A stretch of 64,000 bases of DNA from Thermococcus cleftensis (GCF_000265525.1 NC_018015.1:656322-720321); one strand, 5' to 3'. Positions 39,914 to 62,507 are shown, counted from the stretch's first letter. Numbers and translations are program-made. The notes: generated by a model not told the origin, from the sequence alone.

Positions 39914-39943
39914 GCTTCTTCCCTTTATTTTGCCGCCAGATGG

Positions 39944-39960
39944 AAAAAGTTTATTTATTC
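39944..39960 (+). promoter_or_regulatory. Box A promoter of the CetZ/surface-protein operon
   Basis: AAAAAGTTTATTTATTC, about 35-50 bases before the ATG at 39995. It is the only strong box A seen before 43956, so cetZ probably depends on it. Confidence 0.5.
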
Positions 39961-39994: not shown

Positions 39995-42220
39995 ATGAAG
40001 AAGGCTCTGGCCACAATAATGATTGTTCTCATGCTGATTCCAGCCGTTGGCGCCGGAACGATAGACGGCTCCGTGACGTTTCTCAGCGGGGTTTCCCAGA
40101 GCACAAAGCAGACAAGGGAGGTAAGCCTGGCACTCATGGCCCTGATCTCGGCACGCGATGATGTTAAGTGGGACGTAACTCCCGATATCGAGGTCCTCGT
40201 GGACGAGCTTTTAAAGGAGCAGAACGCAGACGGTGGCTGGGGATATTACTTCAACGAACCCAGCAACGTCCTTGACACGTCCTACGCCGTGATAGCACTC
40301 ACCAGGGCATACCCCTTGATGGACGTCTGGGAGGCAAGGGACGTCAAGAGAGCCATTGACGCCGGGATTAACTACCTCCTCTCAGCCAAGGAGGAAAACG
40401 GCTGGGGCTACGTACCCGGGACACCGGTCTCCTGCTATCCAACCGTCGTGGCCCTCTGGGCCCTCGGAGAGAACGGCTACACTTACAACAGCAGAACCGT
40501 CCGTGATGCAGTTAAATACCTGGAGAGCGTCAATGCCTCTTCCTGCGAGATCTCGAGCTACGAGTTCCTTGCCCTTAGGGTCATAGCTTACCACAGCACG
40601 GGCTACCCGCTGGGGAGCGAGGTTGCGGACCAGCTAAAGGACGTTCTGCTGAAGGAGAACCTTGAGACCAAGGAGAGGGCCATGCTGACCTACGCCCTCG
40701 TTCTCGTCTCCCCCCTGGATCTCGACGTTGCCAGGGCCCTCAAGATGCTTGAGGAAGAGGGCAGGGCTTCCGGCGACGTCTTCTTCTGGTTCAACACCCC
40801 CAAGCTGACCTCCCAGACCGAGGTAATAGCTTCCACTTCCTTCGCCCTGATGGCGCTCTCGCACCCCCTAAAGGTCACCATTCCAAGCGAGGCCATCAAC
40901 CCCTACGCCATGCCCTGCAGGGAGCTGAAGAACATGCAGAATCCTGACGGCGGCTGGGGGCTGGTCCTCAACGAGCCAAGCGACGAGAAGGCCACTTACT
41001 ATGCCCTGCTCGGGCTCGAGAAGTGCTACCCAACCAATGAGAGCGTTGAGAGGGCCCTCAGCTGGGTCAGGGGGGCCTACGAGAGGGACTCCCTGTGGGT
41101 GAGGGAAAACGGAAGAATGTCCGTCGGCTACTACTACGCCCTTGAGACCCTCCTCCACTACGGCCTGCTGGGTGAGGAGGAGAAGGCCCAGGCGATAGAA
41201 ACCATAAGGAACGCCCAGCTCGACTACGGCCTCTGGGGCAACACAGTCCTCGGCCCCCAGCCCTACGACACGGCCCTGGCGGTAAAGGCCCTCCTCGACC
41301 TCGGCGTACCCGCAAACGACACCCTTATCCAGGCCGCCAAGGAGTGGCTTTTAAGCATAAGCAGCGGCGGCTGGGGAACCCACGTCACGACGCCCCACTT
41401 CTCCTACATGCTCAAGCCCGACGTCCTCACCACGATAACCGTCCTCGAGGCCCTTGAGGAAATAGCCACCCCGGACGAGCTCAAACCCCACCTTGAGTGG
41501 CTGATCGAGCAGAGGGTGAACGGGGGCTGGGCCTACTGGAAGGCCTACTACGTCTGGCAGAAGAACAGGGAGTACCCCGGGACTCCGAGCGTCGAGCTGA
41601 CGGTCCGCGCCACTGACCTGCTCCTGAGGCACGGCTACAACTACACCTCCGAGACCCTTGACTTCGTGATGAACGCCAGGGACAGCGGGCTGATAAGGAA
41701 CAAACCCATAGAAACCGCCAGCGCGATACTCTACCTCAGCCGCTTCCAGTACATACCCCCGGTCAGCCTCAACGACGTGAGGGCATACATGGACACCGAC
41801 CTCTTTGAGGTCATTGCCCCCGAGATGGAGAACGAGAGCGTGGCGGAGATAGTGGACTACCTGAACGACGCCTTCAGCGGCGGTTTCATTGCTTCCAACG
41901 GCACCGAGATCGGCGATGGTAGCTACATAGTCATAGCCAACTTCGGCGACTACAGCATAAGACCCTACAACCCCTACCTGCCATTCCACATCGGCAGCGA
42001 TAACGTCACCGTCGGCAACGTCACCGTCCCGATGAACGGGTCGGTTGCCCTGATACCCGGCAAGACGCCAGAAGGAGTTGTTCTCTTCGTCCTCTACGGG
42101 CAGGGAGGCGAGGAGACAGTTAGGGACATCTTCACAACCGGATTCATCAAGTACATAGGCGGAAGCGCAATGGTCTTCGTCAGCGAGAACGGTAGGGTGA
42201 GAGTAATAGTGGTGGGGTGA
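39995..42220 (+). CDS. Secreted alpha/alpha-toroid repeat protein (terpene-cyclase/prenyltransferase-like repeats)
   Basis: A 741-residue exported protein. Signal peptide MKKALATIMIVLMLIPAVGAG is followed by about ten helical repeats with GGWG motifs: NADGGWGYYFNEPSNVLDTS, KEENGWGYVPGTPVS, NPDGGWGLVLNEPSDEKAT, SSGGWGTHVTTP and VNGGWAYWKAYY. These resemble QW repeats of squalene cyclases and complement-TED or prenyltransferase toroids. No DxDD catalytic motif of squalene cyclases is visible, so a binding or structural role is more likely. The last 150 residues are beta-rich. It ends 7 bases before cetZ. GGGGTGTAAGGTG precedes the ATG. Confidence 0.72.
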   Translation: MKKALATIMIVLMLIPAVGAGTIDGSVTFLSGVSQSTKQTREVSLALMALISARDDVKWDVTPDIEVLVDELLKEQNADGGWGYYFNEPSNVLDTSYAVIALTRAYPLMDVWEARDVKRAIDAGINYLLSAKEENGWGYVPGTPVSCYPTVVALWALGENGYTYNSRTVRDAVKYLESVNASSCEISSYEFLALRVIAYHSTGYPLGSEVADQLKDVLLKENLETKERAMLTYALVLVSPLDLDVARALKMLEEEGRASGDVFFWFNTPKLTSQTEVIASTSFALMALSHPLKVTIPSEAINPYAMPCRELKNMQNPDGGWGLVLNEPSDEKATYYALLGLEKCYPTNESVERALSWVRGAYERDSLWVRENGRMSVGYYYALETLLHYGLLGEEEKAQAIETIRNAQLDYGLWGNTVLGPQPYDTALAVKALLDLGVPANDTLIQAAKEWLLSISSGGWGTHVTTPHFSYMLKPDVLTTITVLEALEEIATPDELKPHLEWLIEQRVNGGWAYWKAYYVWQKNREYPGTPSVELTVRATDLLLRHGYNYTSETLDFVMNARDSGLIRNKPIETASAILYLSRFQYIPPVSLNDVRAYMDTDLFEVIAPEMENESVAEIVDYLNDAFSGGFIASNGTEIGDGSYIVIANFGDYSIRPYNPYLPFHIGSDNVTVGNVTVPMNGSVALIPGKTPEGVVLFVLYGQGGEETVRDIFTTGFIKYIGGSAMVFVSENGRVRVIVVG

Positions 42221-42227
42221 TAGGGAA

Positions 42228-43337
42228 GTGAGGGCTCTAATCATCGGGGTCGGCCAGTGCGGAACTAAAATCGCCGACCTCTTTTCTCTCGTTGATTTTG
42301 AGGCGCTTGCGATAAACACCTCCCGGGGCGACCTCGAGTACCTCAAACACATTCCGGCGGAGAGGAGGATACTCATAGGCGAGAGCATAACGGGCGGAAA
42401 GGGCGTCAACGCTAACCCCCTCCTCGGAAGGGAGGCAATGAAGAGGGACCTTCCGATGGTGATGAGGAAGATAGGCTCGATAATCGGCTATGAGGACGTG
42501 GACATCTTCTTCCTCACCTTCGGCTTCGGTGGAGGTACTGGAGCTGGAGGAACGCCGGTTCTGGCGGAGGCCCTCAAGGAGGAGTACCCGGATTCACTCG
42601 TCGTTGCTATTGGGGCACTCCCCCTCAGGGAGGAGGGCATAAGGCCTACCATCAACGCCGCCATAACGATAGATAAGCTCTCCAAGATAGCGGACTCGAT
42701 AATAGCCATAGACAACAACAAGCTCAAGGAGGGCAACGACGACATAAGCCATGCCTACGAGAGAATCAACTACACGATAGTAGAGCGCATAGCCTCGCTT
42801 TTGGCCCTGGTCGATGTCCCTGGCGAACAGACCCTCGATGCCAGCGATCTGAAGTTCGTCCTCAAGGCCTTCGGAAGCTTCGCGACGGTCGGCTACGCAA
42901 AGGCAGATGCAGGCAAGGTCAAGAGCCTGTCAAGGCTCATCATCAGGTCGTTCGAGAGCGAAGGCCTTTACCTAGACGCAAACATCGAATCGGCCCTCTA
43001 CGGCCTCGTCGCCGTCCACGGTCCACCGGAGGTTCTGAAAGCCGGCGACATCTTTGAGGCCTTGGATTACCTCACCAACAAGATAAGGGGCAAGCAGATT
43101 TTCAGGGGCTTCTATCCTGACCCCAGGGAGAGGGAGGTCGAGGTGGTGACCCTGCTGAGCGGAATCTACGAGAGCAGGAGCATCGAGGAGATAATAGTGA
43201 CCGCCAAGAACTACGCCAAGTCATTCATGAAGGCCAAGGAGGAGGCAGAGACTAGGAAGAGAGAGCTCCTGAGCGGCCTGCCCGACTTCGACGACATCTA
43301 TCCCGCTGAGGACGAAGCGGGGGAGGGAGGGGAATGA
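42228..43337 (+). CDS. cetZ: CetZ, tubulin/FtsZ-superfamily cytoskeletal GTPase
   Basis: A 369-residue GTPase of the archaeal CetZ group, whose haloarchaeal members control cell shape and motility. It starts MRALIIGVGQCGTKIAD; the tubulin signature GGGTGAGGTP is at residues 101-110. Unlike FtsZ it retains a long C-terminal domain and an acidic tail (PDFDDIYPAEDEAGEGGE) that could bind partners. GTG start 7 bases after the secreted toroid gene; its stop overlaps the next ATG. Thermococcales also carry FtsZ for division elsewhere, so this copy likely has another task. Confidence 0.92.
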   Translation: MRALIIGVGQCGTKIADLFSLVDFEALAINTSRGDLEYLKHIPAERRILIGESITGGKGVNANPLLGREAMKRDLPMVMRKIGSIIGYEDVDIFFLTFGFGGGTGAGGTPVLAEALKEEYPDSLVVAIGALPLREEGIRPTINAAITIDKLSKIADSIIAIDNNKLKEGNDDISHAYERINYTIVERIASLLALVDVPGEQTLDASDLKFVLKAFGSFATVGYAKADAGKVKSLSRLIIRSFESEGLYLDANIESALYGLVAVHGPPEVLKAGDIFEALDYLTNKIRGKQIFRGFYPDPREREVEVVTLLSGIYESRSIEEIIVTAKNYAKSFMKAKEEAETRKRELLSGLPDFDDIYPAEDEAGEGGE

Positions 43338-43963
43338 GCGAGGTCGTCAGGGACTCCGTGGAGGCGGCGCTGGACCTCGATGAGAGAGAAGTTTACTCCC
43401 ACATTGCCCACGAGAGTGCTGAGGACATAATAAGGATAATCTCCTCCCTCGATGCCGAGCGGGCAAAGCTCCACGGCGAGGTCATCTACTACAAGGACGA
43501 CTGGGACGACCTGATAAGGGAGAGAATGGCGAAGGGGAAGCGCCACACCGCCTTCGACTTCTACAACCCCGCTCTGCTTGACATCTGGGAGCGGAAGGTG
43601 AAGGAGATAAAAAAACTAAAGAGGCTAGAGAAAATTGGCTATACCATTCTGAGCGTCGTTGTAACCGCTTCCGTAGTTGTCTCGGCCCTCACGGGCCAGC
43701 CGTACTTTCTCCTCGGCCTCTCAATCCTCCCGCTGGCAGTTTTCATTCGGGATTCGAGCAGGGAGCGCTTTGACCTAATCTACCATGAACTCACCCAGTT
43801 CTTCATAGACGAGCTTAGAACCCTCGTCAATAAGCACGGTCTCGACCCGGAGCGTTACAAGTTCAAGCTTTTCAGTGGGGATTACTTTGGAATAGAAACC
43901 AGGAAACTCAGAACGGGGCTTTTCGCAGTGGTACGGGCCGAAAACTCCAGGGGCAACCATTAA
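43334..43963 (+). CDS. CetZ-coupled membrane protein of unknown function
   Basis: A 209-residue protein translationally coupled to cetZ (ATGA). Residues 1-100 are charged and helical (DREVYSHIAHESAEDIIRII-like, then KVKEIKKLKRLEK). Two membrane helices (about 103-121 and 124-141) make a hairpin, and a cytosolic C-terminal part follows (HELTQFFIDELRTLVNKHGLD, then KFKLFSGDYFGIETRKL). Both ends are therefore probably cytosolic, well placed to recruit CetZ filaments to the membrane. No domain recognised. The stop overlaps a box A for the pilin-like genes. Confidence 0.72.
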   Translation: MSEVVRDSVEAALDLDEREVYSHIAHESAEDIIRIISSLDAERAKLHGEVIYYKDDWDDLIRERMAKGKRHTAFDFYNPALLDIWERKVKEIKKLKRLEKIGYTILSVVVTASVVVSALTGQPYFLLGLSILPLAVFIRDSSRERFDLIYHELTQFFIDELRTLVNKHGLDPERYKFKLFSGDYFGIETRKLRTGLFAVVRAENSRGNH

Positions 43964-43966
43964 ATA
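43956..43966 (+). promoter_or_regulatory. Possible internal box A before the pilin-like genes
   Basis: ACCATTAAATA overlaps the stop of the CetZ-coupled gene, about 37-47 bases before the ATG at 44003; it may give extra transcription of the pilin-like genes. Confidence 0.4.
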
Positions 43967-44002
43967 GATGTTCAAAGATATACCGATAGTGAGGGGAGAA
44001 AG

Positions 44003-44560
44003 ATGAGGTTAGTGAGACGTGGTCAGGTTTCGCTGGAGTTTATGCTCGTGTTTGGAATAATGCTCGTGCTTATGCTGTACTCCGTGAACAGCGTGACGTT
44101 CAAGGAAGGATCAACATCAACGGAAACCCTCAAGATGCAGGTGCTCCTCGAGGAGAAAAGCCTCGCCAATGCGATAGCAGGTACGATAGCGCAGGTCTAC
44201 GCCCAGGGGCCTGGGGCGAAATCTACCACATACGCAAAGGTAACCTACCTGGCCGAGCCCGACTACCTCCAGAAGGCCTTTGGCTCGGCCAAGGTGAGCG
44301 TCGGGTCGTCCGGCAACCTGGTGTTCGTGGGAGTCGGTGACAACCTCATAACGGAAGACGCGAACGGCGCCGAGAAGAACACGGTCACGACGGAGATGCC
44401 CTACACTTCTAAGGGAAAGGGAATACTGTTCCCAGACGGTCTCCCTTCAAAGTCCATCAGGATAATCGTTGAGTGGGACCCGAGCAGGGACGAGGACTGG
44501 AGCGCCGCCGTCGTCGGCAGCTACCTGGAAATCACGATAAACATCAACCCCGGTGGGTGA
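44003..44560 (+). CDS. Pilin-like protein with class III signal peptide (1)
   Basis: A 185-residue protein with an archaeal type IV-pilin leader: MRLVRRG | QVSLEFMLVFGIMLVLML, with cleavage expected after Gly7, Gln at +1 and Glu at +5, followed by a 20-residue hydrophobic helix. The rest is beta-rich and Gly/Ser/Thr-rich. The best canonical signal in the cluster, so possibly the major subunit. GTGAGGGGAG precedes the ATG. Cleavage would need an EppA- or FlaK/PibD-type peptidase, not in the window. Confidence 0.8.
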   Translation: MRLVRRGQVSLEFMLVFGIMLVLMLYSVNSVTFKEGSTSTETLKMQVLLEEKSLANAIAGTIAQVYAQGPGAKSTTYAKVTYLAEPDYLQKAFGSAKVSVGSSGNLVFVGVGDNLITEDANGAEKNTVTTEMPYTSKGKGILFPDGLPSKSIRIIVEWDPSRDEDWSAAVVGSYLEITININPGG

Positions 44561-44562
44561 AG

Positions 44563-45006
44563 ATGAGAAAGGGCCAGATAAGCCTTGACTTTCTGTTCGC
44601 AGTTACGCTTGTGATGATAACGATGCTCAACGTGGTCTACATAGCCACGAGCGAGAAGGGCAACGCCGAAACCTTTGACGTGACCGCGAGGCTCAAGGTG
44701 TTCTCTGTGGACATCAGGGACACCGTGGCCAAGGTATACGCCTCCGGGGACGGGTTCAGCGTGAGGAAAACCTCACCGTTCCCCCTCAAGAGCGGGGAGG
44801 GGATAGTAATCAGACTGAACGCCGATGACGACACAATAACGGTCATAGGTATCATCGGAGGGAATACGTACACGGTGGTCCAGAAGAGCCCGGTGCCCAT
44901 ATACACCGACAGCTCGGTGCAGTTAAATCAGGATACCGACGAGGTTTGGATCGTCGCGCGAGAGGAAGGGGGTGTGACGTATGTTGAAATCCAGACGTCG
45001 CCGTAG
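44563..45006 (+). CDS. Pilin-like protein with class III signal peptide (2)
   Basis: A 147-residue protein, MRKG | QISLDFLFAVTLVMITML, with Asp replacing Glu at +5, then a beta-rich head. Starts two bases after the previous stop with GGTGGGTGA before the ATG; the 30 open codons upstream belong to the end of the previous gene. Its last 26 bases overlap the next gene. Confidence 0.75.
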   Translation: MRKGQISLDFLFAVTLVMITMLNVVYIATSEKGNAETFDVTARLKVFSVDIRDTVAKVYASGDGFSVRKTSPFPLKSGEGIVIRLNADDDTITVIGIIGGNTYTVVQKSPVPIYTDSSVQLNQDTDEVWIVAREEGGVTYVEIQTSP

Positions 45007-45463
45007 GGGACAGACGGCCATTGAGGTGCTCTTCATCGTGGGCATAATCCTCACCGGCATAGCCTTGATGACACCCGGTTATATTAAGGAAAGCGACACG
45101 GCCACGGTAGTGGCCTACGTTAAGAACTCGGCCGCGAGCGCCTGCGCCTACCTGAACTCTGGAGTCACGACAGATAGATATCCCCAAAGAATCCTCAACG
45201 CAATCATAACGGAGTCCAACTACACTTACAAGGCATTCCGTGTTGTGGGAGTGACCTCCAGCGAGAGCGAGGACACCATAACGGTAGGCATCATAATAGA
45301 GTACTCGGGAAAGATTGACCTCGGGGACGACGCGATAGCCGGAACGATAAGGGCATTCATAATCAGCGACCTCGCCGAGAGCGGCAACGCGAGGCTCGTT
45401 GGGGACACCCTATACTATGGGGGGCGAGAGGTGGTAATAGTCGTGAGTGTGGTGAGAGCATGA
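44981..45463 (+). CDS. Pilin-like protein with class III signal peptide (3)
   Basis: A 160-residue protein, MLKSRRRRRG | QTAIEVLFIVGIILTGIALM, with Glu at +5 and a strongly basic leader. The body has short beta strands and two Cys-free termini apart from a single Cys in SACAYLNSG. Overlaps the preceding gene by 26 bases in another frame and the next gene by four (ATGA). Confidence 0.75.
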   Translation: MLKSRRRRRGQTAIEVLFIVGIILTGIALMTPGYIKESDTATVVAYVKNSAASACAYLNSGVTTDRYPQRILNAIITESNYTYKAFRVVGVTSSESEDTITVGIIIEYSGKIDLGDDAIAGTIRAFIISDLAESGNARLVGDTLYYGGREVVIVVSVVRA

Positions 45464-46950
45464 GAAGGAGGGGACAGGTACTTTCGCTGGACGCGATGCT
45501 CTCACTGATAATAGTGATCATGATCCTCGGTATGGTCAGCACGACCTCGACGGCAATGAAGAACGAGATAACCACGATGGTAGGCTGGTACGAGAGAAGC
45601 AACATAGGCGACAACATGCTCGATCTGATAATGAAAACCCCCGGAAGCCCGGACAACTGGGAGACCAATCCCTCATCTATGGTACAGCTAGGACTGGAAA
45701 ACCCAGATTACCCCGACACAATTGACTACAACAAAATCGAGGCCCTGAACGAGGCGTACCAGAACAACGACGAGGCTCTCAAGGAGGCGCTCTCAAACCT
45801 CAGCCTCGGGAAGGACTTCAGCCTGGGCTTTTTCCTTACCAGAATCGAGATCGAGGGCGACGTCACAGTAGTGCCACCCACCACGGAAGGCTCGGTTGAT
45901 GTCCCCTCAGGAGGACACCTCTCCATAACCCCAGTCAGGGGATACGCCTATGGGAGGGGCATATACGCGGAGTGGATAGACCCCGAGAGGGTGGACCTTG
46001 AGGGTGTTGGAAACATTCCCAACGTGATAAACATCAGTGCCGGCGAGACCTTCGTTTTCAAGCTCATCGAAGGTGGAAGCGTGAGGGTTGATGTTCCAGG
46101 TGGGGGAAGTCCCGGCGGGCCGGTGAACTACGAGATACCCACAGGAGTCACGGTTCACATAGAGGTGGAGACCGGCTACCTCCTGATAGGCTGGGCAAAG
46201 CTTGACAACGGTACCTACGAGCTCTGGATACCCTACCACCGCCAGGGCCAGCAGGTGAGGACGACCTGGGAAGGCACGGTCTGGTGGGGACAGCAGGGCG
46301 GGGTTTCCTCGTCCGATCTGGTGATAAAGTACATCTACGCTACGGAAGTCGTTCACGCCGATTACAACATCACCCTGATTAACGGCGAGTTTGTAAACGA
46401 TCCTGACGAAATAAAGGCCTCGATGGACAGGTCGCCCTGGGTGACCTACTCCGAGAGGCGCGTGCCGATGAGCAAGATGATATACTCAAGCCAGTATACC
46501 GTGACCCCCTCCGACCTTCCAAAGGAGATGTACGTGGGCACTCTAACCACGACGGTTCCAGACTACATGAGCTTCAAGATAGAGTTCTCCGACCCGGGTT
46601 ACGTCGTGCTCGTGGCGTGGCTCAGGGGCACCAACGTCTCAGGCTACTCCGTCCTCGCCGCGTACCGCACCGAGGAGGATCCCACCATGAAGGCCATAAT
46701 CAACCAGACCATCAACGGAAACAACGTGGTGCACTACTACTCCTCCCCCAGCCCGGATTACATCGTCATACCCTGGAACGACTTCCTGACCACGGTGAAG
46801 CAGGGCGAGAGCCTTGACATCTACGTGTGGGTTTACAAGATGAAGGACGTCAACGTTATGCAGTTCATCGACCTCAACGGGATAAACACCCTGATGAAAC
46901 CCCAGGTGAGCCTGGCAGTTTTAAGACTCAGCGTGTGGGATGACTCATGA
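45460..46950 (+). CDS. Large pilin-like surface protein with shifted class III-like leader (4)
   Basis: A 496-residue protein whose N-terminus MRRRG | QVLSLDAMLSLIIVIMIL keeps the basic-Gly-Gln start but moves the acidic residue to +6. The head is large and beta-rich, with a Gly/Pro segment (VPGGGSPGGPVNYEIP, about 212-227) and Trp-rich strands. In size and position it recalls large minor pseudopilins. Coupled at both ends by four-base ATGA overlaps. Confidence 0.68.
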   Translation: MRRRGQVLSLDAMLSLIIVIMILGMVSTTSTAMKNEITTMVGWYERSNIGDNMLDLIMKTPGSPDNWETNPSSMVQLGLENPDYPDTIDYNKIEALNEAYQNNDEALKEALSNLSLGKDFSLGFFLTRIEIEGDVTVVPPTTEGSVDVPSGGHLSITPVRGYAYGRGIYAEWIDPERVDLEGVGNIPNVINISAGETFVFKLIEGGSVRVDVPGGGSPGGPVNYEIPTGVTVHIEVETGYLLIGWAKLDNGTYELWIPYHRQGQQVRTTWEGTVWWGQQGGVSSSDLVIKYIYATEVVHADYNITLINGEFVNDPDEIKASMDRSPWVTYSERRVPMSKMIYSSQYTVTPSDLPKEMYVGTLTTTVPDYMSFKIEFSDPGYVVLVAWLRGTNVSGYSVLAAYRTEEDPTMKAIINQTINGNNVVHYYSSPSPDYIVIPWNDFLTTVKQGESLDIYVWVYKMKDVNVMQFIDLNGINTLMKPQVSLAVLRLSVWDDS

Positions 46951-49124
46951 GGAGACGGGGTTTCGTGTTCACCCTGGACGCGGTCCTCGCAGTACTCCTG
47001 GTAACCATGTTCGTGGTCAGCATGGTCCAGGTCACGAGCACGTCAAGCCAGGTCTACTCAACCTACATGCGCTCCCAGAGCAAGTACATGGCCGAGGACA
47101 CGCTAACGATGCTTAGAACAGTACCGCTGAGAGAACTGGTGCCGCCGGAGAAGCTGGAGGAGTGGATGAGCGGAACCGACCCGGTCATCAACACAACACT
47201 CGTGACTCCGGACATGTCGCCGATAGACATAGTCTCAACTTACTGGGCCACCGACCCGCTCTATCCTGAAGTCGATTTTAAACACAAGGCCGAGATAATA
47301 ATGGGTTACGTACTCAACAACACCCTGAAGGGCTACAACTACGAGATGATGATAAACGACTACACCAGCCCGTACCTTAAAAAGACCGGCTCCGACTCCT
47401 CTGCCTCACCCGACGTAATTCCCGCCACCCTCATAATAAGCGGCTACGCCTACAACCAGACCCCCAGGGGCTATATGGCGAGGGCGTTTCTGACCAAGGC
47501 GGAGTACACGAGGAGCGACCTCTTCGGCTGGTTCAGGGTTCTCGCCGCGGCGGAGTCGAGTGATGGTACAAGCAACACCCTGACGGTCACGAGGAAGATA
47601 AACATTCCGGCAGTAGATGAGGATTCCATATACGAGGCCGACGGCAACTTCATACACAGGCTCTACGAGGAAGAGGACGTGTACATAAACGGGCAGAAGG
47701 TGACGCTGACCTATTCAGAGCCCAACGCCCCGAACCTCGAGAGGTACCTCGTCCCAGGCGATAACGAGGTGAAGATGGTCTTCCGGGATTACAAGGCCCA
47801 AGACGGCTACGCGGGAGAGATAGGAATAGGTAGCGGTACCACGATCTACGTGAACTATAAGTCCAACTCACTCAACGTCGATGATCCCGGACTGGTGAAG
47901 GTTTACAACATAACCTCCAGCTACACGGGCTTCATGTACCTCCTGGAAAACTTTGTCCCCGGAAACATTACATCTATCGACATGAAGTTCAAGGTTGAGG
48001 GCGCCGAAGTCGTCAGGCTCTACTACGGTCTCGGCGGAAACCTCTACCTCCTAGCAGAGAAGAGGGTTGATCCCAATTCCATCGAGACGGTGGAGTTCAC
48101 GAACAGTACTATAGCGGACGCCCTCGATGATTACGGGATAACCTACGAGGACCTCTCAAAGATGGTCTTCGACTTCGTTATCGCCGTGGACGCCAAATAC
48201 GATGATGATAAGCAGCATTTCTACTACGGAGGCGCCAGCTCGGACTCGTACCCCTGCAACGACTGCGGAGGTGTGCGCGAGAGGGTTCTCTACGGATACC
48301 CCGATTCGTACGTTAAGATTGGCTACATTTCAAAGGTCGTCACCTCAAGATACAGCATACCCCTATCCATATACGTGGACTATAACGACCCCACATACAG
48401 CGACCCCACGGGTTACCACTGCGGCGTTCAAACGTACAAGAGCATGAGCGTCTCGTACACTCTTCCCTCCAAGGCTATTCCCTGGTATGCGGACCTGTGG
48501 GTCGGTTACTGCTTTGACAGCTCCACCACCCAGACCCTTGAGGAGAACGGGGAGGAGTTCTACTCGGGTCCCAACGGGAGGTATGCCATAAGGATAGCCT
48601 ACACCAAGATGTTCGACTGGATGATGAGGGAAGGCGACAACACCTTCACCGCCACCCTGTCCGTTGGAGTGAACGAGGGTGGGACTTCTTACAGGGAGGG
48701 TGCCACCAGAGGAATAATCAAGTACTTCATCGAGGGTTACGCGGGCTACGGCGAGGTGTTCCCCAAGGCCCTCCAGGGATACCCCGATTACCAGGGCTAC
48801 CGCCTCCAGTACTACTACGGGCCCAGCAGCGAGCCCAGAACGATCCTCATAGGCGACCCTCCATACAAGGACATATCTATAGATGAACTCGATCCCACCA
48901 GATACGCGGTGGACGACGCGATACTCAGGCTGTTCGAGAAGCTGAACTATGAAAACGACCAAAACCCCGACGAATGGAAGAGCGAACCCTTCGACGGCTC
49001 CAGGGAGAATCCTATAGACGTGGACCTGCCCGAGAGTGTCAGGATCGACTTCGTCTCAATGGGAAACATACCTGGACTCTTTGAACCGATAACGATAACC
49101 CTTCGCGTCTGGAGGGAAGGCTGA
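46947..49124 (+). CDS. Large pilin-like surface protein (5)
   Basis: A 725-residue protein, MRRRG | FVFTLDAVLAVLLVTMFVV. The leader pattern survives, but Gln at +1 is Phe. The extracellular region is beta-rich and rich in Tyr, with a CNDCGG pair near 434. A segment MKFKVEGAEVVRLYYGLGG and following strands look carbohydrate-module-like, though no named domain is certain. The stop shares one base with the next ATG (TGATG). Confidence 0.65.
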   Translation: MRRRGFVFTLDAVLAVLLVTMFVVSMVQVTSTSSQVYSTYMRSQSKYMAEDTLTMLRTVPLRELVPPEKLEEWMSGTDPVINTTLVTPDMSPIDIVSTYWATDPLYPEVDFKHKAEIIMGYVLNNTLKGYNYEMMINDYTSPYLKKTGSDSSASPDVIPATLIISGYAYNQTPRGYMARAFLTKAEYTRSDLFGWFRVLAAAESSDGTSNTLTVTRKINIPAVDEDSIYEADGNFIHRLYEEEDVYINGQKVTLTYSEPNAPNLERYLVPGDNEVKMVFRDYKAQDGYAGEIGIGSGTTIYVNYKSNSLNVDDPGLVKVYNITSSYTGFMYLLENFVPGNITSIDMKFKVEGAEVVRLYYGLGGNLYLLAEKRVDPNSIETVEFTNSTIADALDDYGITYEDLSKMVFDFVIAVDAKYDDDKQHFYYGGASSDSYPCNDCGGVRERVLYGYPDSYVKIGYISKVVTSRYSIPLSIYVDYNDPTYSDPTGYHCGVQTYKSMSVSYTLPSKAIPWYADLWVGYCFDSSTTQTLEENGEEFYSGPNGRYAIRIAYTKMFDWMMREGDNTFTATLSVGVNEGGTSYREGATRGIIKYFIEGYAGYGEVFPKALQGYPDYQGYRLQYYYGPSSEPRTILIGDPPYKDISIDELDPTRYAVDDAILRLFEKLNYENDQNPDEWKSEPFDGSRENPIDVDLPESVRIDFVSMGNIPGLFEPITITLRVWREG

Positions 49125-52100
49125 TGAGAAGGAGAGCCTACATCATAAACTCCACGGTCATACTCCTAATCATACCCCTGATGCTCCTCCTCGCCACCTA
49201 CGAGGACGTCTCCTCCCAGATAATCTTCGCCCAGAGCGAGAGAATGCAGGTTGAGAGAACATATAGAGTCGTATCGTACGTCGAGCTGGACCTCCAAAGG
49301 GCCCTGGAAATATCAGGAAAGAGGGCCCTGGTCACGGTCGTTGATTACATAGCCAGCACTGGCAATTTCCTCGATCCCCAGACCAGCCCCGCCAACGTCA
49401 CCATTCGTGACCTGGTGCTCTTTAAAGAGGCCAGTGGAATCTCCCAGAGCTACGTGGACAAGATAATGAAGGATCAAACGCTGAAGAAGTGGCTGATAAA
49501 CGTCTCCACCGAACTGAAAAAGCAGGGCTACACGATGGAGATAAGCAACACCCCCCTGACAGACCTCCAGACGATGAGCGACCGCGAGCTGAGGGATTTC
49601 CTCATCAACAACGTGGACATAACCGTTGCCCCCCTTGACTCATTCAGGATCGTCATAAGGGCCAGACTGGAGAACGTTAAGATATACGACTCGGCCAGCA
49701 ATGTTATTTATGAAGGGCAGATCCCGAGAAAAGGGTACGTTTACTCCATAATCTCCATACAGGATCTCGAGGATCCGATGTTCTCGGCCCTCACGAACGG
49801 AAGGTACTTCCGCTCCATTCAGCCCTGCAACTACACCTATCCCGAGCTCATAGACAGGCCGATGAAGGTTCTCTACGGCAACGGCAACAGCGACAGGGAC
49901 CACGTGGCCGGGATATACAAGAGCGCCCCAGATCTGGATTACATCTTCTTCGGTCCAACCTATCCCAACGCCGACGCCCACGCGTACGTTTTGAAGTCAG
50001 GAAGCCCCTCCGATGGTACTCCCTTCCTGAACGGGACGGTATTCCAGCCTGGAGGGGACCCGGTGGACCCATCTAAGGTTTTTAAAACGGGGGATCTTGG
50101 AGTCTTGGTCTTCAGCGACACCAGCTCGAGCAACTGGTGCGACGCTTCCTACAAATGGAGGGTTAACATCACAATACCCTGGACACCCCAGGGAAGCCTC
50201 GTTCTCCTGAAGGTCCCTACCTCGATGTTCCCAGGCATATACGCCACGGAAGACATGGCATCGCTGGTAATATACGACGGAAATGGCAACTGCGGCCAGG
50301 TGGATTTCTGGATAGAGTACTGGGGAAGCACCTACGCCTGGATCTGGATAAAGTCCACCGGAACTACCTACTCAATATACTTCACCGACGACCCAGCCCG
50401 GGCAACTACCGGGTATAACGTGGACCAGATGTTCTGGCTGATAGACACTTTTGATGGCAGCGCAGGTTCAGCCCCGAACTCCGCACTCTGGGAGAATCCG
50501 GGCGGGGCGTACCTGGACGGAAACGGCAACGTGGTGGTTCCCGCCGGTGCGGAGAAGCTCGTCCTCCAGACTCTCGACACCCTCAGCGGGAGCTTTTTCA
50601 TCAGGTTCAAGATGGCCCCTGAAAGGGCGGTGAGGGACTTCGACGCGGGGGCACAGGTGGAGCCTGAGGCGATCGTGCAGGAAGGGTACCTCAGGATCAG
50701 AGTGAACTACCCCTCAAACGCCAGGGACGTTCAGATACCCGTGCACTTAAATTCCACGATAGCCCAGGTGATCCTCCATAACGACCTGAACGAGGCCCAG
50801 ATTGAAGTGTACTCCGACCCGGAGATGACGTCTCCCCTGCCGTTCTGGATAGAGTACTGGAACGACGACGGCGCCCTCATATGGATACGTGGGGATCTGC
50901 CGGGAACCTTCTACATCAGGTACAACACCGGAACCTACCGCAGGGGCAACGGCGAGGCCGTGTTCCCCTTCTTCGATGACTTTAACGAGACCCTTTCAAA
51001 GTGGATAATCGACCCCCACGACCAGGGGGCAGGGGTTAGTTTGAACCCAGAAGGTACGGGGACAGTAACTATAGACGGGGGAGATTCACTGTTTGCGATG
51101 GTGAACAAGGACCCGCTGGACATAACATACGACTTTGCGGTCAGGTTCAGAATGAAGCCAAACTTTGATTCCAGAAGGGACTGGAACGCTGGAATTGGAG
51201 TGTGGGACGGTTGGATCAGATTGGTAGGGGCGAATCGGCGGGCTAGATATTACATAGCCGAACAACTCTTCACCGATGATATAAACAGCGGGAACGATCC
51301 CATGGCAATTCACTGGGTGGAATGGGGATACTCTGGAACCTGGTGGATAGAAAACTGGTGGTATGACAACGACGACCTCGACGACGGGCAGGTTTCGAAC
51401 AGAGACTACGACTACCACACCTATGAAGTCAAGGAAATCTACAACACCAGCGCGAGCTTCACGGACTTCACGAGAGACGTTACCAACAACTACGATGAAA
51501 CCTACAAGACCCTCTACTCCTACCTGAAATACATATTCCTAGTCATAGACAGCGAAGACGAAGACAGGGGAGCAACCTACGACTGGATATTCGTCAGGAA
51601 GCTGATAGACGACGATAAGCTGTCGTACGATATAACAAACCACGCAATATCCAACAGCCTTCAGTTCATAGACGACACGAGCGCCACCAGTGAGGATCAC
51701 GGCGGCGATTTCCTGGGAATACTGAAGGACTGGGGGGACAGCCTGGTCTCGACGTCAAGCGCTCCAACCTACACCTCATACACCTACCGCTATGAGGTGA
51801 ACTTCACACCCTCCAACGGCAATGTTGAACTATCCTTTGCGCGCATATCCTCCACGGGTTCCATCAATCGCGTCGAAACCTCTGTGTCGGGGTATCCCGC
51901 GGATAGCCTGAAGGTCGGAATCGTCATCGATAACACCCGCGACAACGATGCGTACTTTGACTGGATAGTAATAGGCCTCGGCAACTACTACCCCGTCAAA
52001 CCAGCCCAGATAACCTCCTCGGGCGTTGAAACAGCCCCCGAAACCACAGCCACCTACAACTCCAAAGCCTACGATCTCCAGCCCTTCGTGGAGTGCGTGA

Positions 52101-52555
52101 TGGATATGAAGTACTTCGGAACTTACTCCGGCTGGTCCTTCTTTGAGAGGCTGGAGAACAGCGACGACAACCACGCCAACTACTTCAGGCTCTCAATGGA
52201 GATGCAGGACGAGCTCGGGATAAAGTACGGTGACGAGTACTACCCGATAGGCCTCGTCAGCTTCATGGTTCCCTACAGAACCTACGATGAGAAACTGTAC
52301 AACCTGTTCAGCGACCTCCAGAAGAACCCGGAGGAGGGCGTTTCCAGCGTGGATTACAACTTCCTCAACTACTACTTCAAAGAGGGAGCCTCCATAACAG
52401 GGCAGGGATACCGCATATGGGGCATCTCCTACGCCTATCCGGACGACGTGAACACGGTGCTCGGTAATCCTCTGGAAGTTCCGTTCTTCATGGACTACGA
52501 AACAGCCACTGCCATCTTTGGAGCTGAAGGAGCGAACGACCTGCTGAAGAGGTGA
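49124..52555 (+). CDS. Giant cell-surface protein with two DUF2341-like modules (6)
   Basis: A 1143-residue protein, the largest in the window. The N-terminus MRRRAYIINSTVILLIIPLMLLLA is a membrane helix that keeps the basic start but lost Gly-Gln; it may anchor the protein. Residues about 30-300 contain helical and beta parts. Two DUF2341-like modules follow (about 337-450, KWRVNITIPWTPQGS...WIEYWGSTYAWIWIK; about 517-625, LRIRVNYPSNARDVQIPVHL...WIEYWNDDGALIWIRGD), each followed by a concanavalin-like beta domain (MAPERAVRDFDAG; MKPNFDSRRDWNAGIGVWDG). DUF2341 occurs in archaeal surface proteins that may bind glycans. Confidence 0.72.
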   Translation: MRRRAYIINSTVILLIIPLMLLLATYEDVSSQIIFAQSERMQVERTYRVVSYVELDLQRALEISGKRALVTVVDYIASTGNFLDPQTSPANVTIRDLVLFKEASGISQSYVDKIMKDQTLKKWLINVSTELKKQGYTMEISNTPLTDLQTMSDRELRDFLINNVDITVAPLDSFRIVIRARLENVKIYDSASNVIYEGQIPRKGYVYSIISIQDLEDPMFSALTNGRYFRSIQPCNYTYPELIDRPMKVLYGNGNSDRDHVAGIYKSAPDLDYIFFGPTYPNADAHAYVLKSGSPSDGTPFLNGTVFQPGGDPVDPSKVFKTGDLGVLVFSDTSSSNWCDASYKWRVNITIPWTPQGSLVLLKVPTSMFPGIYATEDMASLVIYDGNGNCGQVDFWIEYWGSTYAWIWIKSTGTTYSIYFTDDPARATTGYNVDQMFWLIDTFDGSAGSAPNSALWENPGGAYLDGNGNVVVPAGAEKLVLQTLDTLSGSFFIRFKMAPERAVRDFDAGAQVEPEAIVQEGYLRIRVNYPSNARDVQIPVHLNSTIAQVILHNDLNEAQIEVYSDPEMTSPLPFWIEYWNDDGALIWIRGDLPGTFYIRYNTGTYRRGNGEAVFPFFDDFNETLSKWIIDPHDQGAGVSLNPEGTGTVTIDGGDSLFAMVNKDPLDITYDFAVRFRMKPNFDSRRDWNAGIGVWDGWIRLVGANRRARYYIAEQLFTDDINSGNDPMAIHWVEWGYSGTWWIENWWYDNDDLDDGQVSNRDYDYHTYEVKEIYNTSASFTDFTRDVTNNYDETYKTLYSYLKYIFLVIDSEDEDRGATYDWIFVRKLIDDDKLSYDITNHAISNSLQFIDDTSATSEDHGGDFLGILKDWGDSLVSTSSAPTYTSYTYRYEVNFTPSNGNVELSFARISSTGSINRVETSVSGYPADSLKVGIVIDNTRDNDAYFDWIVIGLGNYYPVKPAQITSSGVETAPETTATYNSKAYDLQPFVECVMDMKYFGTYSGWSFFERLENSDDNHANYFRLSMEMQDELGIKYGDEYYPIGLVSFMVPYRTYDEKLYNLFSDLQKNPEEGVSSVDYNFLNYYFKEGASITGQGYRIWGISYAYPDDVNTVLGNPLEVPFFMDYETATAIFGAEGANDLLKR

Positions 52556-52559
52556 AATC

Positions 52560-53303
52560 ATGGGGCTGGAAGATTTCCTCTACCGCATTGGTGAATCGGT
52601 GTACTCAGCCGGTGCCAAGGTCAGGGCATTTCTTTTTCCCACTCCCGGGGAAAGGCCACCGGACTTCAGTCTGATGAAGAGGCTCACCAAAAAACCGCTG
52701 ACGGTTCACGAGTTCCTAAGCTTAAGGCTGCAGGTGGCGTTTCTCCTTTACCTCTTTGCCAATCTGGCAATGCTCCTCCTCCGGCTGAACCCCATCTGGA
52801 TAACGGTGTTTGGAGGGCTGTACTTCCTGTACATCAGGTACACACTCGCCAAGAACTGGAGCTTCTTCATAGACCCCGAGCCATATCGGGCTTTCTACTA
52901 CGGAATCTCGGCCGTAACCCTGGCCGCGTTCCTTGGCTACACCCTCGTGAGAAGGGTCGCTACCTCGGTTTACTACTACTATGGCTACCTCCTGATGGTC
53001 TTCGCAGCGGTGATGGCGTTCCGCTGGTACTTCAAGCAGAGATACGGAAGGGACTACACCTACGGCATCGTGGAGGAAGTAAAGGGAGACCTCGTAAGAG
53101 TCTTCGTCCACGACGACATAGCGGCAAACGTCAAGCCGGGTCACTACTGGGTTGACGCCGTGGAGGACCTCGCAGTGGGAAGGGTCGTTAAGCTTTTGGT
53201 CGAGGACAGGAAGCTTAGGGGCGCGGTTCCGATCAGGATACTCGAGGTGTACCTTGGTCAGTCCTCCCACAGCTCAACCGAGCCGAAGGAAGAAACCGAG
53301 TGA
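52560..53303 (+). CDS. DUF2101 membrane protein
   Basis: A 247-residue protein placed in DUF2101 from memory. Residues 1-55 are cytosolic, followed by about five hydrophobic segments (between 56 and 155; for example VAFLLYLFANLAMLLL and ISAVTLAAFLGYTLV), then a cytosolic beta-rich domain (about 165-235, YGIVEEVKGDLVRVFVHDDI). It begins four bases after the giant gene and closes the operon. It may be a membrane platform for the pilin-like proteins, but it does not look like the TadC/FlaJ-type platform. Confidence 0.72.
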   Translation: MGLEDFLYRIGESVYSAGAKVRAFLFPTPGERPPDFSLMKRLTKKPLTVHEFLSLRLQVAFLLYLFANLAMLLLRLNPIWITVFGGLYFLYIRYTLAKNWSFFIDPEPYRAFYYGISAVTLAAFLGYTLVRRVATSVYYYYGYLLMVFAAVMAFRWYFKQRYGRDYTYGIVEEVKGDLVRVFVHDDIAANVKPGHYWVDAVEDLAVGRVVKLLVEDRKLRGAVPIRILEVYLGQSSHSSTEPKEETE

Positions 53304-53533
53304 AGAATCAGAAGGAAAATCGAGTGGCAGGGCTCAACGAGGTTGGTCTTCACAAAGCCTTCCCCATTCCTCATTATCTCCAGGGGTTCGGTGCCAGAGC
53401 ACTCGGGGAGGATTAGAACGCGCTCGTTCTCCATGATTATCCGGAATCCAAGCCCTTCGCAGGTTCTGGCGATGAATTTCCGGAATCCTTCCCAATCGAG
53501 GATCTCAACGCGGTAGTAGATAGTGTACCCCAA
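53258..53533 (-). CDS. Conserved hypothetical protein
   Basis: About 91 residues, starting from a TTG at 53533 (GGTGATAGA just before it), reading GYTIYYRVEILDWEGFRKF. A box A-like CTTTTTAAGG lies near 53563-53575. The open frame reaches 53587, but that extension would overlap the promoter. Mixed alpha/beta, no signal peptide. The last 46 bases overlap the convergent DUF2101 gene. No family recognised; gene reality is supported by codon use and a promoter, function unknown. Confidence 0.5.
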   Translation of the reverse strand: MGYTIYYRVEILDWEGFRKFIARTCEGLGFRIIMENERVLILPECSGTEPLEIMRNGEGFVKTNLVEPCHSIFLLILHSVSSFGSVELWED

Positions 53534-53605
53534 TCTATCACCGTTGATAGTAATACATGGAACCTTAAAAAGTTTTCGGACTTGCAATCGCGCATCGTAA
53601 GGAGT

Positions 53606-53688: not shown

Positions 53689-54258
53689 CTAGCTGAGCTC
53701 CCCACAGAGCCTGGCGAAGTTCCTGTAAACCTCCGCTCCCCTCTCCGTGTGGGCAACCTCCGGGTGGAACTGGACGCCGTAGATGGGCAGGCTCTCGTGC
53801 TTCATGGCCTCAACCGGACAGGTCTCGCTCCTCGCGAGGAGCCTGAAGTTAGGTGGCAGCTCTTTCACCTCGTCCATGTGGCTCTCCCAGACCCTCAACT
53901 TTTCCGGAAGCCCGCGGAAGATGTCGTCCTCCTCGACTATTTCGATCTCGACGAGGCTGTACTCTGCTTTTTCACCCCTGCCGACCTTCCCCCCGAAGTG
54001 CCTCGCTATCAGCTGGTGACCGAGGCAGATGCCGAGGATCGGGACGTTGAACTCGTCGTAGTGCTCAAGAACAGCAGAGCAGTTGCCGGTCCTGTCTATG
54101 TCCGGCCCGCCGGAGAAGATTATGCCCTTCGGCTTCATCGCCTTTATCTCCTCAAGCGGCGTCGTGTTCGGGATTATCTTCGCCTCGACGCCGAGGTACC
54201 TCAGGGTTCGCCAAATCCTGTGAACGTACTGCCCGCCGTTGTCCATTATGACTATCAT
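53689..54258 (-). CDS. guaAA: GMP synthase glutaminase subunit
   Basis: A 189-residue class I glutamine amidotransferase that feeds ammonia to the ATP-pyrophosphatase subunit GuaAB. Triad: Cys78 in GICLGHQL, and His and Glu in [12 protein letters not shown]. In Thermococcales GMP synthase is two separate proteins. Its ATG overlaps the stop of the vapC-type gene by four bases, so expression is coupled to that toxin-antitoxin pair and not directly to guaAB. Confidence 0.95.
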
Positions 54259-54701
54259 TTCACCACCTCCAAGAATTTGAAAAACTCATCGTGCTCATCA
54301 ACCAGGTAGAAGGCCCGTAAGCCGAGGGATTTGGCCAGCCCGACCATCTTTTTGTCGTTCGTCACTAGAACCGCTCCCAGGTAGCGGGCGGTTGCGATGA
54401 AGTATATGTCCGAGGCCTTGTGATGGGTCTGAAATGCAACCTCCCGAAGGTCTTCAATGAGCAGTTCCTCGGGAACCCACACGACGATTTCGCCGTAGTA
54501 GTCCAACGCCCTCTCGACCCGCTCGCGGTCGAAGTACCTCGAAAGAACCGCCACGAACTCCACTTCACCCAAACGGGGAGAGTACAGTTCAAGAACGCCC
54601 TCCTGGGCAAGTTTGATGACCCTCTCTGCAACCTCGGTCCTTTCCGGGTAAAAGCTGGAAAACAGGTGAAAAACCACGGAAGTGTCTATGACGACCCTCA
54701 T
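54255..54701 (-). CDS. vapC: VapC-type PIN-domain toxin
   Basis: A 148-residue PIN ribonuclease: Asp6 in [14 protein letters not shown], Glu in [10 protein letters not shown], Asp in [11 protein letters not shown] and Asp in VTNDKKM. VapC toxins cleave tRNA or rRNA when freed from the antitoxin. It overlaps both the antitoxin gene upstream (ATGA) and guaAA downstream (ATGA). All acidic residues are present, so the nuclease is probably active. Confidence 0.88.
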
Positions 54702-54907
54702 GTCTCCTCCTCCCTGAGGCGCAGGAGGTAATCAGTCGGGTCCTCCTCAAAGCGCTCCCTCGTGAGTTCTCCCCTCATCTCCCTGGCCAGCTCAAGGAAG
54801 TCCCCGCGGTATATCCTCACCCTGAGCCTCTGTCCCTCCCTCAGCTTGAGTGGCTTGAGGGGCTTCAGAACCCCGTTCTCGTAAACCACCTCGATGATCT
54901 CGCCCAT
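54698..54907 (-). CDS. vapB: Antitoxin of the AF2212/DUF104 family
   Basis: A 69-residue protein. [20 protein letters not shown] and [15 protein letters not shown] give the short beta strands of the DUF104 antitoxin fold; the C-terminal half ([20 protein letters not shown]) would wrap the toxin. These antitoxins lie upstream of PIN toxins in archaea. GGTGGGAG precedes the ATG, and a box A lies at 54933-54949. Confidence 0.87.
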
Positions 54908-54932
54908 GCTCCCACCGCTTTAAATTCTCCCC

Positions 54933-54949
54933 GAAAATAAATAAAGGTT
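54933..54949 (-). promoter_or_regulatory. Box A promoter of vapBC-guaAA
   Basis: Minus-strand AACCTTTATTTATTTTC, about 26-42 bases before the antitoxin ATG. It means guaAA has its own transcript unit headed by the antitoxin gene. Confidence 0.55.
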
Positions 54950-54950
54950 C

Positions 54951-55874
54951 TCACTCGAACTCGATCGTCGCCGGAGGCTTGTTGGTGACGTCGTAGAGCA
55001 CCCTTCCAACATCGGGAATCTCGCTCGTTATCCTGAAGGCTATCCTCTGGAGGACCTCGAAGGGGACGTTCATGGCATTTGCCGTCATGCCGTCGAGGCT
55101 CTCAACGACGCGAACCGCTATCGTTTCCTTGTAGGCCCTTATGTCGCCCTGAACGCCGACGGTCTTCACTCCCAGCAGAACGGCGAAGGCCTGCCAGGGT
55201 CTCAGCCCGGCCCTCTCGATTTCCTCCTCGACTATGGCGTTGGCTTCCCTGACGATGGCGACCTTCTCCGGAGTAACCTCACCAAGGACACGGACGGCAA
55301 GACCCGGCCCCGGGAAGGGCATGCGGTTGTATATCTTCTCCGGGAGGCCGAGCTCCCTGCCAAGCTCCCTGACCTCGTCCTTGTAGAGGTCGCGGAGCGG
55401 CTCGATGAGCTTGAGGTTGAGCCTCTCGGGCAGACCTCCAACGTTGTGGTGGCTCTTGATTTTGCCCTTGCTCTCAATCCAGTCCGGGGCTATGGTTCCC
55501 TGAATGAGGAACTGTGCGTCAATCTCTCTAGCCACCTCCTCGAAGACCTCAATGAAGACCCTGCCGATTACCTTCCTCTTCTCCTCCGGATCGGTTACGC
55601 CTTTGAGCTCTCTGAAAAAGCGCTCGCCGGCGTCGACGTAGTGCAGGTTGAGCCCGAACTCGTCGCGGAAGGTCTTGACGACGAATTCTGGCTCGTTCTT
55701 CCTCATGAAGCCGGTGTTCACGAAGACGGCGTGGAGTCTGTCGCCAATCGCTTTGTGAGCAAGCACCGCTGCGACCGAGCTGTCAACGCCGCCGGAGAGG
55801 GCTATTATGGCCTTCCCGTCACCGACCGTATTCCTTATCTCCTCAACCTTCTCCTCGATGAACCTCTCCCACAT
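54951..55874 (-). CDS. guaAB: GMP synthase ATP-pyrophosphatase subunit
   Basis: A 307-residue enzyme that adenylates XMP and aminates it to GMP with ammonia from GuaAA. PP-loop motif SGGVDSS is near residue 28, with [16 protein letters not shown] and the C-terminal dimerisation domain ending [13 protein letters not shown]. The ATG at 55874 is preferred over upstream in-frame codons because AGGTGG is well spaced. In other Thermococcales it lies directly next to guaAA; here a toxin-antitoxin pair intervenes. Confidence 0.95.
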
Positions 55875-55906
55875 GAGCACCACCTTTTTGCCAACCATTC
55901 GGACGT

Positions 55907-55920
55907 CAATTTATAAACCT
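55907..55920 (-). promoter_or_regulatory. Box A promoter of guaAB
   Basis: Minus-strand AGGTTTATAAATTG, about 33-46 bases before the ATG. Confidence 0.55.
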
Positions 55921-55943
55921 ATCCGAGCGGAAATTAGACAGTT

Positions 55944-59077
<3,134 letters not shown>

Positions 59078-59081
59078 TCCA

Positions 59082-59753
59082 TCACCTCCTCGCCCACTCC
59101 ACCATGCTCCTGAAGAGCCTCAGGCCGTCCTCGCTACCCAGAAAGCGGTCGCTCGCGCGCTCCGGGTGGGGCATGGTTCCGAGGACGTTGCCCATCTCGT
59201 TGGCTATGGCGGCTATGTTCAGAACCGAGCCGTTTGGGTTCGCTTTTTCGGTTACGTTGCCCTTTTCGTCGCTGTACTGGAAGACGATTCTGACCTTAGA
59301 GGGGTCGTCTACGTAGTAGTTGCCCTCCGCGTGGGCTATCGGCATTCTGATAACCTCGCCGGGCTCGTAAAGGGTAGTAAAGGGCGTTTCAGTGTCTTCA
59401 ACGCGGAGGTGCACCCATCTGCAGAGGAAGCGCGGTATCCTGTTCGGCCTCAGCGCCCCCGGAAGGAGACCGGTCTCGGTAAGGATTTGAAAGCCGTTGC
59501 ATATCCCAAGAACGGGCCTCCCCTCGCGGGCGAACTCCTTAACCTCTTCCATTATCTCCTGCCTCGCCGCTATCGCTCCGGCCCTAAGGTAGTCGGCGTA
59601 GCTGAATCCCCCTGGGAGAACGATGCCGTCGAAGTCCCTGAGATTAGCTCTGTACCAGACGCGCTCGGCCTCTGCACCGGCCCTCCTTATGGCCCTCTCC
59701 GTCTCGAAGTCGCAGTTTGTTCCGGGGAAGACGATGACCGCGAACTTAACCAT
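59082..59753 (-). CDS. purQ: Phosphoribosylformylglycinamidine synthase subunit PurQ
   Basis: A 223-residue glutaminase subunit. Triad: Cys in [10 protein letters not shown], His and Glu in MPHPERASD. It delivers ammonia to PurL in the PurLQS complex. Starts one base after the purS stop. Confidence 0.96.
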
Positions 59754-59754
59754 C

Positions 59755-60006
59755 TCAGCTCACCGGTTCGATGCTGTACTCGTAGTTGTGGATCAGCGGG
59801 TTGGCAAGGAGCTTTCTGCACATCTCCTCGACCTCTCGCTCAGGCTTCTCGCTCTCCAGCTCGAACTCGAAGTACTTGGGAACGCGAAGGTTCTCCACCG
59901 CGTAGCCGAGGTTCCTGAGGGCGTTTCCTATGACCCTTCCTTCCGGGTCGTTGAGGCCTTCCTTGAGGCGAACGATGACGGTAACCTTCCACTTCATTTC
60001 AACCAC
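59755..60006 (-). CDS. purS: Phosphoribosylformylglycinamidine synthase subunit PurS
   Basis: An 83-residue protein, [20 protein letters not shown], that bridges PurL and Pur[12 protein letters not shown] and [18 protein letters not shown] match the family. GAGGTGGTTG precedes the ATG; one base separates it from the upstream purP stop. Confidence 0.95.
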
Positions 60007-60007
60007 C

Positions 60008-61150: not shown

Positions 61151-61160
61151 CTTAACCACC

Positions 61161-62477: not shown

Positions 62478-62507
62478 GAGCTTCACCATTTATCTGTCAA
62501 AAATTAC

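Follow-up and report, generated by a model that had tools for sequence, protein, structure and literature searches.

Can an archaeal tubulin serve a pilus? The question is raised by a locus of Thermococcus cleftensis in which the gene for the tubulin homologue CetZ lies among genes for secreted, pilin-like, and membrane proteins. To our knowledge, no role is established for CetZ outside haloarchaea, and Thermococcales, with a single CetZ that is always found at pilus genes, provide a clean place to ask. The window analysed here, a stretch of 64,000 nucleotides (NC_018015.1:656322-720321), contains ten such genes, hereafter g1 to g10, with positions counted from its first letter. The account that best explains them, to which we would assign a probability of roughly 0.55, is that they encode the minor-pilin and tip part of a clade-1 type IV pilus whose base would be organised by CetZ tethered through its membrane neighbour, g3.

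Layout and Conservation of the Locus

ORF calling confirmed ten ORFs on the plus strand of the window, the successive gaps from g1 to g10 being +7, -4, +39, about +2/-4, -26, -4, -4, -1, and +4 bases. Except for the 39 bases between g3 and g4, neighbouring genes overlap or lie at most seven bases apart, bearing out the same-strand cluster and spacing described for this DNA in an earlier sequence-only reading. Alternative starts are available for g1 (39992 or 39995) and g5 (44557 or 44563).

The locus was then compared with that of 60 other Thermococcales genomes covering six genera (61 loci with the window). Order and strand of the ten genes are kept in 60/60 of these loci with few exceptions, namely g1 missing in two, g10 relocated in one genome, and g5, and likewise g10, divided between two ORFs in a single genome each. 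Synteny limited to one strain, the outcome named by the sequence-only reading as speaking against its proposal, was therefore not what was found, and its link of CetZ to a large extracellular system is upheld by stable linkage wherever a Thermococcales locus is assembled. CetZ itself is present in 89/94 Thermococcales genomes, the remaining five being fragmented assemblies (73-91% complete) in which FtsZ alone was seen, without CetZ and g3; wherever both CetZ and g3 were found, they are adjacent. No CetZ appeared in the 21 genomes searched from sister families of the class. The last gene, g10 (52560..53303), encodes a DUF2101 membrane protein (PF09874, 268 bits) that is Thermococcales-restricted among the genomes searched, occurring in 87/94 genomes of the order and in none of the sister-family or control genomes.

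The association of CetZ with pilins is robust and, together with the scaffold idea, already published, contrary to the sequence-only reading, which was unaware of any description tying CetZ genetically to a large extracellular assembly. Makarova 2016 (PMC4858521), citing Szabo 2007, noted that the clade-1 type IV pilus loci of most Thermococci include a squalene cyclase and a GTPase of the FtsZ family. Brown and Duggin 2023 (PMC9856176) found pilin genes beside cetZ in 15/15 Thermococcales and proposed CetZ as an assembly scaffold.

Several features were also observed at the downstream flank. Purine biosynthesis genes occupy positions 53689-62489 on the minus strand, in opposite orientation to the cassette, and comprise GMP synthase subunits (53689 and 54951), a DUF1246/DUF1297 protein (55944), an AIR-synthase-like protein (56936), and GARS (61161), fitting the purine genes near cetZ reported by Brown and Duggin (PMC9856176). 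A PIN-domain (VapC-like) gene (54255-54701, minus strand) overlaps the end of the gene for the small GMP synthase subunit, and about one genome in three carries it at the matching place. Lastly, on the strand opposite g10, a 109-aa ORF with no Pfam match (53258-53587, minus strand) overlaps the end of that gene.

Pilin-like Surface Proteins and a Distant Pilus Motor

Six consecutive genes encode proteins with pilin-type N-termini. Those of g4 (44003..44560; class III signal peptide RRG/QVSLEF), g5 (44563..45006; RKG/QISLDF), and g6 (44981..45463; RRG/QTAIEV) are pilin-like, with weak Pfam matches to class III signal peptide families for g4 (PF04021) and g6. They are followed by a large pilin-like protein of 496 aa, g7 (45460..46950), for which the Pfam scan matched no family; by a very large one of 725 aa, g8 (46947..49124); and by g9 (49124..52555), a membrane-anchored protein of 1143 aa with DUF2341 modules (PF10102, E=1.7e-14). 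The pilin-type N-terminus is present in 61, 56, 59, 61, 61, and 56 of the 61 orthologues of g4 to g9, respectively, the same test giving 0-1 for CetZ, g3, g10, and the flanking genes.

The AlphaFold2 model of g8 (pLDDT 84) displays a helix at residues 10-58 and a large beta-rich head, a predicted shape resembling that of a giant pilin. Assignment of g8 to a known adhesin fold was rejected, Foldseek hits being scattered among beta-sandwich proteins with E-values to 3e-7 and TM-scores of about 0.1. Since DUF2341 proteins have been read as tip adhesins (PMC4858521), g9 is predicted to be a PilY-like tip adhesin. A g9 of only 359-377 aa is found in 8/61 genomes, and the one scanned is devoid of DUF2341.

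The published model of such clade-1 loci combines minor pilins and DUF2341 tip adhesins with a single ATPase and two TadC proteins (PMC4858521). The cassette in the window contains no motor genes, and a motor operon is located about 270 kb away in the same genome, at 986-992 kb, encoding a 622-aa T2SSE ATPase, two T2SSF proteins (357 aa and 302 aa), a DUF515 protein, and a 336-aa protein. The one strong T2SSE match and the two T2SSF proteins of this genome are all in this operon. The archaellum was rejected as a partner, its ATPase and platform not being found in the window's genome, which leaves the pilus motor as the only candidate there. We place the ATPase in clade 1 by inference from its neighbours and from the assignment of Thermococci to this clade by Makarova. 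The distribution of DUF515, present in 92/94 genomes of the order and, among 14 control genomes, in Methanocaldococcus jannaschii alone, fits that of clade 1. The genome further contains a single prepilin-peptidase match (PF01478, 401 aa) at 1469.7 kb, next to which is a pilin of 55 aa, and short class III pilins at 158 kb (two in tandem), 359 kb, and 1470 kb. What the sequence-only reading had taken for a candidate new surface system is better described as part of a known type of pilus, covering its minor pilins and tip, with the motor encoded elsewhere. Counted in favour of this account were the pilin-type N-termini, the motor operon, and the short pilins with their peptidase, as well as the retention of the full cassette in three genomes, namely that of the window, with one strong T2SSE match and no archaellum motor, and two others (G073 and G076), each with a single T2SSE match.

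As a separate observation, the pilus ATPase frame reaches about 820-1230 aa in many Thermococcales (G000:C1:988257-989012 and equivalents), where the T2SSE match breaks off at model position 238, a pattern suggestive of an intein; the version in the window's genome is the short one of 622 aa.

These data also bear on the idea that the products form an S-layer-associated surface assembly rather than a pilus, using the pilin export route while CetZ scaffolds envelope growth. The sizes of g7 to g9, which are oversized for pilins, and the secreted toroid protein in the cassette would suit such an assembly, as would the fact that no report of a clade-1 pilus in a Thermococcus was found, a point also counted against the account preferred here. 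Nonetheless, pilin-type signals in all six proteins, the presence in the genome of pilin motor, short pilins, and peptidase, and the formation of pili by the related methanogen genes (PMC4858521) make an S-layer assembly quite improbable.

A Secreted Toroid Protein without Cyclase Residues

The first gene, g1 (39995..42220), is annotated as squalene cyclase and matches the SQHop-cyclase-like toroid families of Pfam (PF13243/PF13249). Upon alignment with squalene-hopene cyclase, the catalytic D376 and D377 correspond to L and T, and the DXDD motif occurs in 3/59 g1 orthologues. Cyclase activity was consequently rejected, as was a complement-like thioester, whose motif is absent in 59/59. The protein has an ordinary signal peptide, with a hydrophobic N-terminus in 59/59 orthologues and a pilin-type one in 8/59. 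Judging by these residues, it is probably a binding or scaffold protein, better named secreted alpha/alpha-toroid protein; the missing catalytic motif is, as far as found, among the points new here.

Two comparisons between genomes concern the surroundings of g1. Between L080 and L084, g1 is wholly replaced (9% of its length being alignable) amid neighbours that are 89-95% identical, so g1 too may face outward partners. The related genomes L059 and L071 have no g1 and a shortened g9 (485 and 468 aa, respectively; the scanned L059 protein is without DUF2341), which hints at a possible joint role of g1 and the long g9.

Promoter-like Elements and Probable Transcription Units

The possible box A noticed by the sequence-only reading in the 39-base gap turned out to be a conserved element. 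In the window, TTAAATA (43960..43966) overlaps the g3 stop codon 43 nt 5' of the g4 start, and a ribosome-binding-like AGGGGAG lies between it and the g4 ATG at 44003. The same heptamer is located 38-52 nt (median 43) 5' of g4 in 58/61 genomes and occurs at any other internal junction in 0-2/61, its position and sequence fitting an archaeal box A. A promoter-like A-rich/TTTATTTA element also precedes g1 (39942..39959), with TTTATTT in 40/59 and TGGAAAA in 29/59 of the orthologous upstream regions.

Conservation of this box 5' of g4 and its near-absence elsewhere indicate that the ten genes probably form two transcription units, g1-CetZ-g3 likely being one and g4-g10 the second. The gaps do fit the single large operon proposed earlier, which is nonetheless rendered doubtful by a promoter-like element splitting CetZ and g3 from the pilin genes. 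A literature search found no published transcript map for the locus. Separate expression of the CetZ-g3 and pilin units, as the internal box A suggests, was counted against the account in which CetZ serves the pilus.

CetZ and Its Candidate Membrane Tether

The second gene (g2, 42228..43337) encodes a member of the tubulin superfamily (PF00091, E=3.6e-30) with a GGGTG motif and a CetZ-type C-terminal domain (CetZ_C, PF21011, 58.8 bits versus a cut-off of 21.6). It is nearer to CetZ than to FtsZ, its closest solved relatives being the CetZ structures 4b46, 3zid, and 4b45. GGGTG is invariant in 61/61 orthologues, as are both acidic T7-loop residues, D204 and D207, whose conservation is compatible with a predicted GTP-dependent polymerisation. 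Towards the C-terminus, all 61 orthologues share the motif GLPDF[DE]D[ILV]Y (GLPDFDDIY in the window, 43275..43301), followed by a variable tail.

The adjoining membrane protein, g3 (43334..43963), matched no Pfam family. Its residues 5-95 are 80% identical, versus 30% for the membrane segment (96-132), and its AlphaFold2 model (pLDDT 77) predicts, with moderate confidence, a helical hairpin made of helices 79-120 and 133-168. A conserved cytosolic N-terminal region followed by a helical membrane hairpin is therefore the predicted architecture. No known fold could be assigned, given that neither a PDB sequence match nor a fold match was obtained, and the search for relatives outside Thermococcales gave just two marginal matches, to the C-terminal half of g3; the missing fold match was counted against the preferred account. 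FtsZ, for example, is a membrane-tethered cytoskeletal protein, and the CetZ peptide and the conservation pattern of g3 are, by analogy, features to be expected of a protein of this kind. The invariant peptide, the CetZ-g3 adjacency, and the 80-90% identity of CetZ and g3 residues 5-95, against 30% for the g3 membrane segment and 34-49% for the surface proteins, were counted in favour of CetZ acting through g3 at the pilus base.

Averaged over pairs of genomes within the order, identity is 0.86 for CetZ, 0.59 for g3, 0.39 for g1, and 0.34-0.49 for g4-g9. In near-identical sets of 12-13 genomes, CetZ (0.87) equals FtsZ (0.88) and exceeds the pilus ATPase (0.78), the flanking radical-SAM gene standing at 0.85. 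Being more conserved than the ATPase, CetZ may have its main job other than at the pilus, a consideration counted against the preferred account; its FtsZ-like conservation would be explained if CetZ probably also has a general role in shape or polarity. Taken further, CetZ and g3 would have solely a general task in cell shape, in polarity, or in organising the membrane and be mere neighbours of pilus genes through inherited linkage or loose co-regulation. This is the strongest rival, favoured as well by the conserved promoter element between g3 and g4 and by the agreement of CetZ, g3, and g1 with the genus tree, from which g7-g9 depart freely. Yet adjacency and the same gene order survive over six genera, the secreted g1 shares a unit with CetZ, and haloarchaeal cetZ2 independently stands beside a different pilus locus (PMC9856176), so that we consider mere neighbourhood rather unlikely.

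Exchange of the g7-g9 Module

Proteins g8 and g9 occur in matched forms. A g8 of 640-756 aa pairs with a g9 of 463-1206 aa, usually with DUF2341, and a g8 of 843-878 aa pairs with the g9 of 359-377 aa; one locus (L041) is intermediate, with 811 and 720 aa for g8 and g9, respectively. When mapped on a tree built from CetZ and the flanking genes, the form of g9 switches six times, and that of g8 switches with it in 6/6 independent contrasts (sign test, p about 0.03), a co-switching counted in favour of the pilus-tip account. On the g8 tree, moreover, the short-g9 form is a single clade. Genus labels change 14 times on the g8 tree and 10 times on the g7 tree, versus the minimum of 5 on those of CetZ, g3, and g1, all of them quick trees with some long branches. 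The replaced block is directly visible in the sister genomes L033 and L034, which are 95% identical in DNA from the upstream gene to g4, have no detected similarity from early g5 to mid g10, and then return to about 91% identity; several other sister pairs exhibit comparable replaced blocks centred on g7-g9. At the level of sequence, gene trees and sister alignments alike show that g7-g9 are exchanged as alleles between species and genera.

As for the purpose of such exchange, we would tentatively propose, at somewhat less than even odds, that a near-frozen CetZ-g3 pair presents interchangeable g7-g9 proteins, traded across species and genera, that probably confer strain-specific recognition in adhesion or DNA exchange. 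Another possibility is that the pilus serves DNA uptake (competence), in which case CetZ would position the uptake and tip exchange would reflect DNA or partner recognition. In Methanococcus maripaludis, transposon insertions in the related clade-1 locus, including a DUF2341 gene, block DNA uptake, the genes there being needed for natural transformation (PMC10133366), mutants that also count in favour of the broader pilus account. DUF515, shared by M. jannaschii and Thermococcales and by no other control genome, and the natural competence of T. kodakarensis (PMC7137780) point the same way. Competence is, however, known in few strains and the cassette is present in all, and strong tip diversity fits adhesion or recognition equally or better; a dedicated uptake pilus thus seems doubtful.

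Proposed Mechanism and Comparison with Known Systems

Building on the computed gene content, conservation, motor presence, module exchange, and conserved internal promoter element, we infer the following course for the preferred account of a pilus base organised by g3-tethered CetZ. The g4-g8 pilin precursors and the anchored DUF2341 protein g9 would be exported, the pilins cut by a prepilin peptidase whose gene lies outside the cassette, and the pilus put together by the ATPase and two TadC-type platform proteins of the distant motor operon, with g7-g9 forming its exposed tip or adhesin complex. CetZ would polymerise at the cytosolic face of the membrane, its C-terminal peptide contacting the conserved cytosolic region of g3 as tether, and the resulting CetZ-g3 layer would position or stabilise the pilus base, while CetZ probably retains a general shape or polarity role. 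We know of no CetZ reported in methanogens, where the clade-1 pilus is present, a circumstance counted against this account. The locus offers practical handles on it, namely g3 as candidate tether, GLPDFDDIY as candidate binding peptide, a probable promoter of their own for the pilin genes, and an outer module that may be swapped or deleted leaving CetZ untouched.

No description of the promoter element, of the CetZ-g3 features, or of the module exchange was found in the literature examined, and these count as new. Relative to the Thermococcales cetZ neighbourhoods of Brown and Duggin, the locus type and the scaffold hypothesis are held in common, the internal promoter element, CetZ C-terminal peptide, g3 cytosolic region, and g7-g9 exchange not being found in the available text of that work (PMC9856176). 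The clade-1 pilus of Thermococci and class I methanogens (PMC4858521; the M. maripaludis epd locus, PMC10133366) likewise comprises several minor pilins, a DUF2341 tip, an ATPase with two TadC proteins, and stand-alone short pilins. In comparison with that of class I methanogens, CetZ, g3, and DUF2101 seem to have been added in Thermococcales, and here 270 kb separate the motor operon from the pilin cassette. In haloarchaea, cetZ2 beside the pilB2/C2 pilus (subclade 4F) similarly places a CetZ at a type IV pilus locus; nonetheless, that pilus belongs to another clade and has its own ATPase in the locus, so that the pairing apparently arose independently. Finally, the UV-induced Ups pili of Sulfolobus, as cited in PMC8416519, provide a parallel for a variable outer part that sets partner recognition, although they are a different pilus with no CetZ reported, and their variability resides in the major pilin, whereas here it is concentrated in a module of large proteins.
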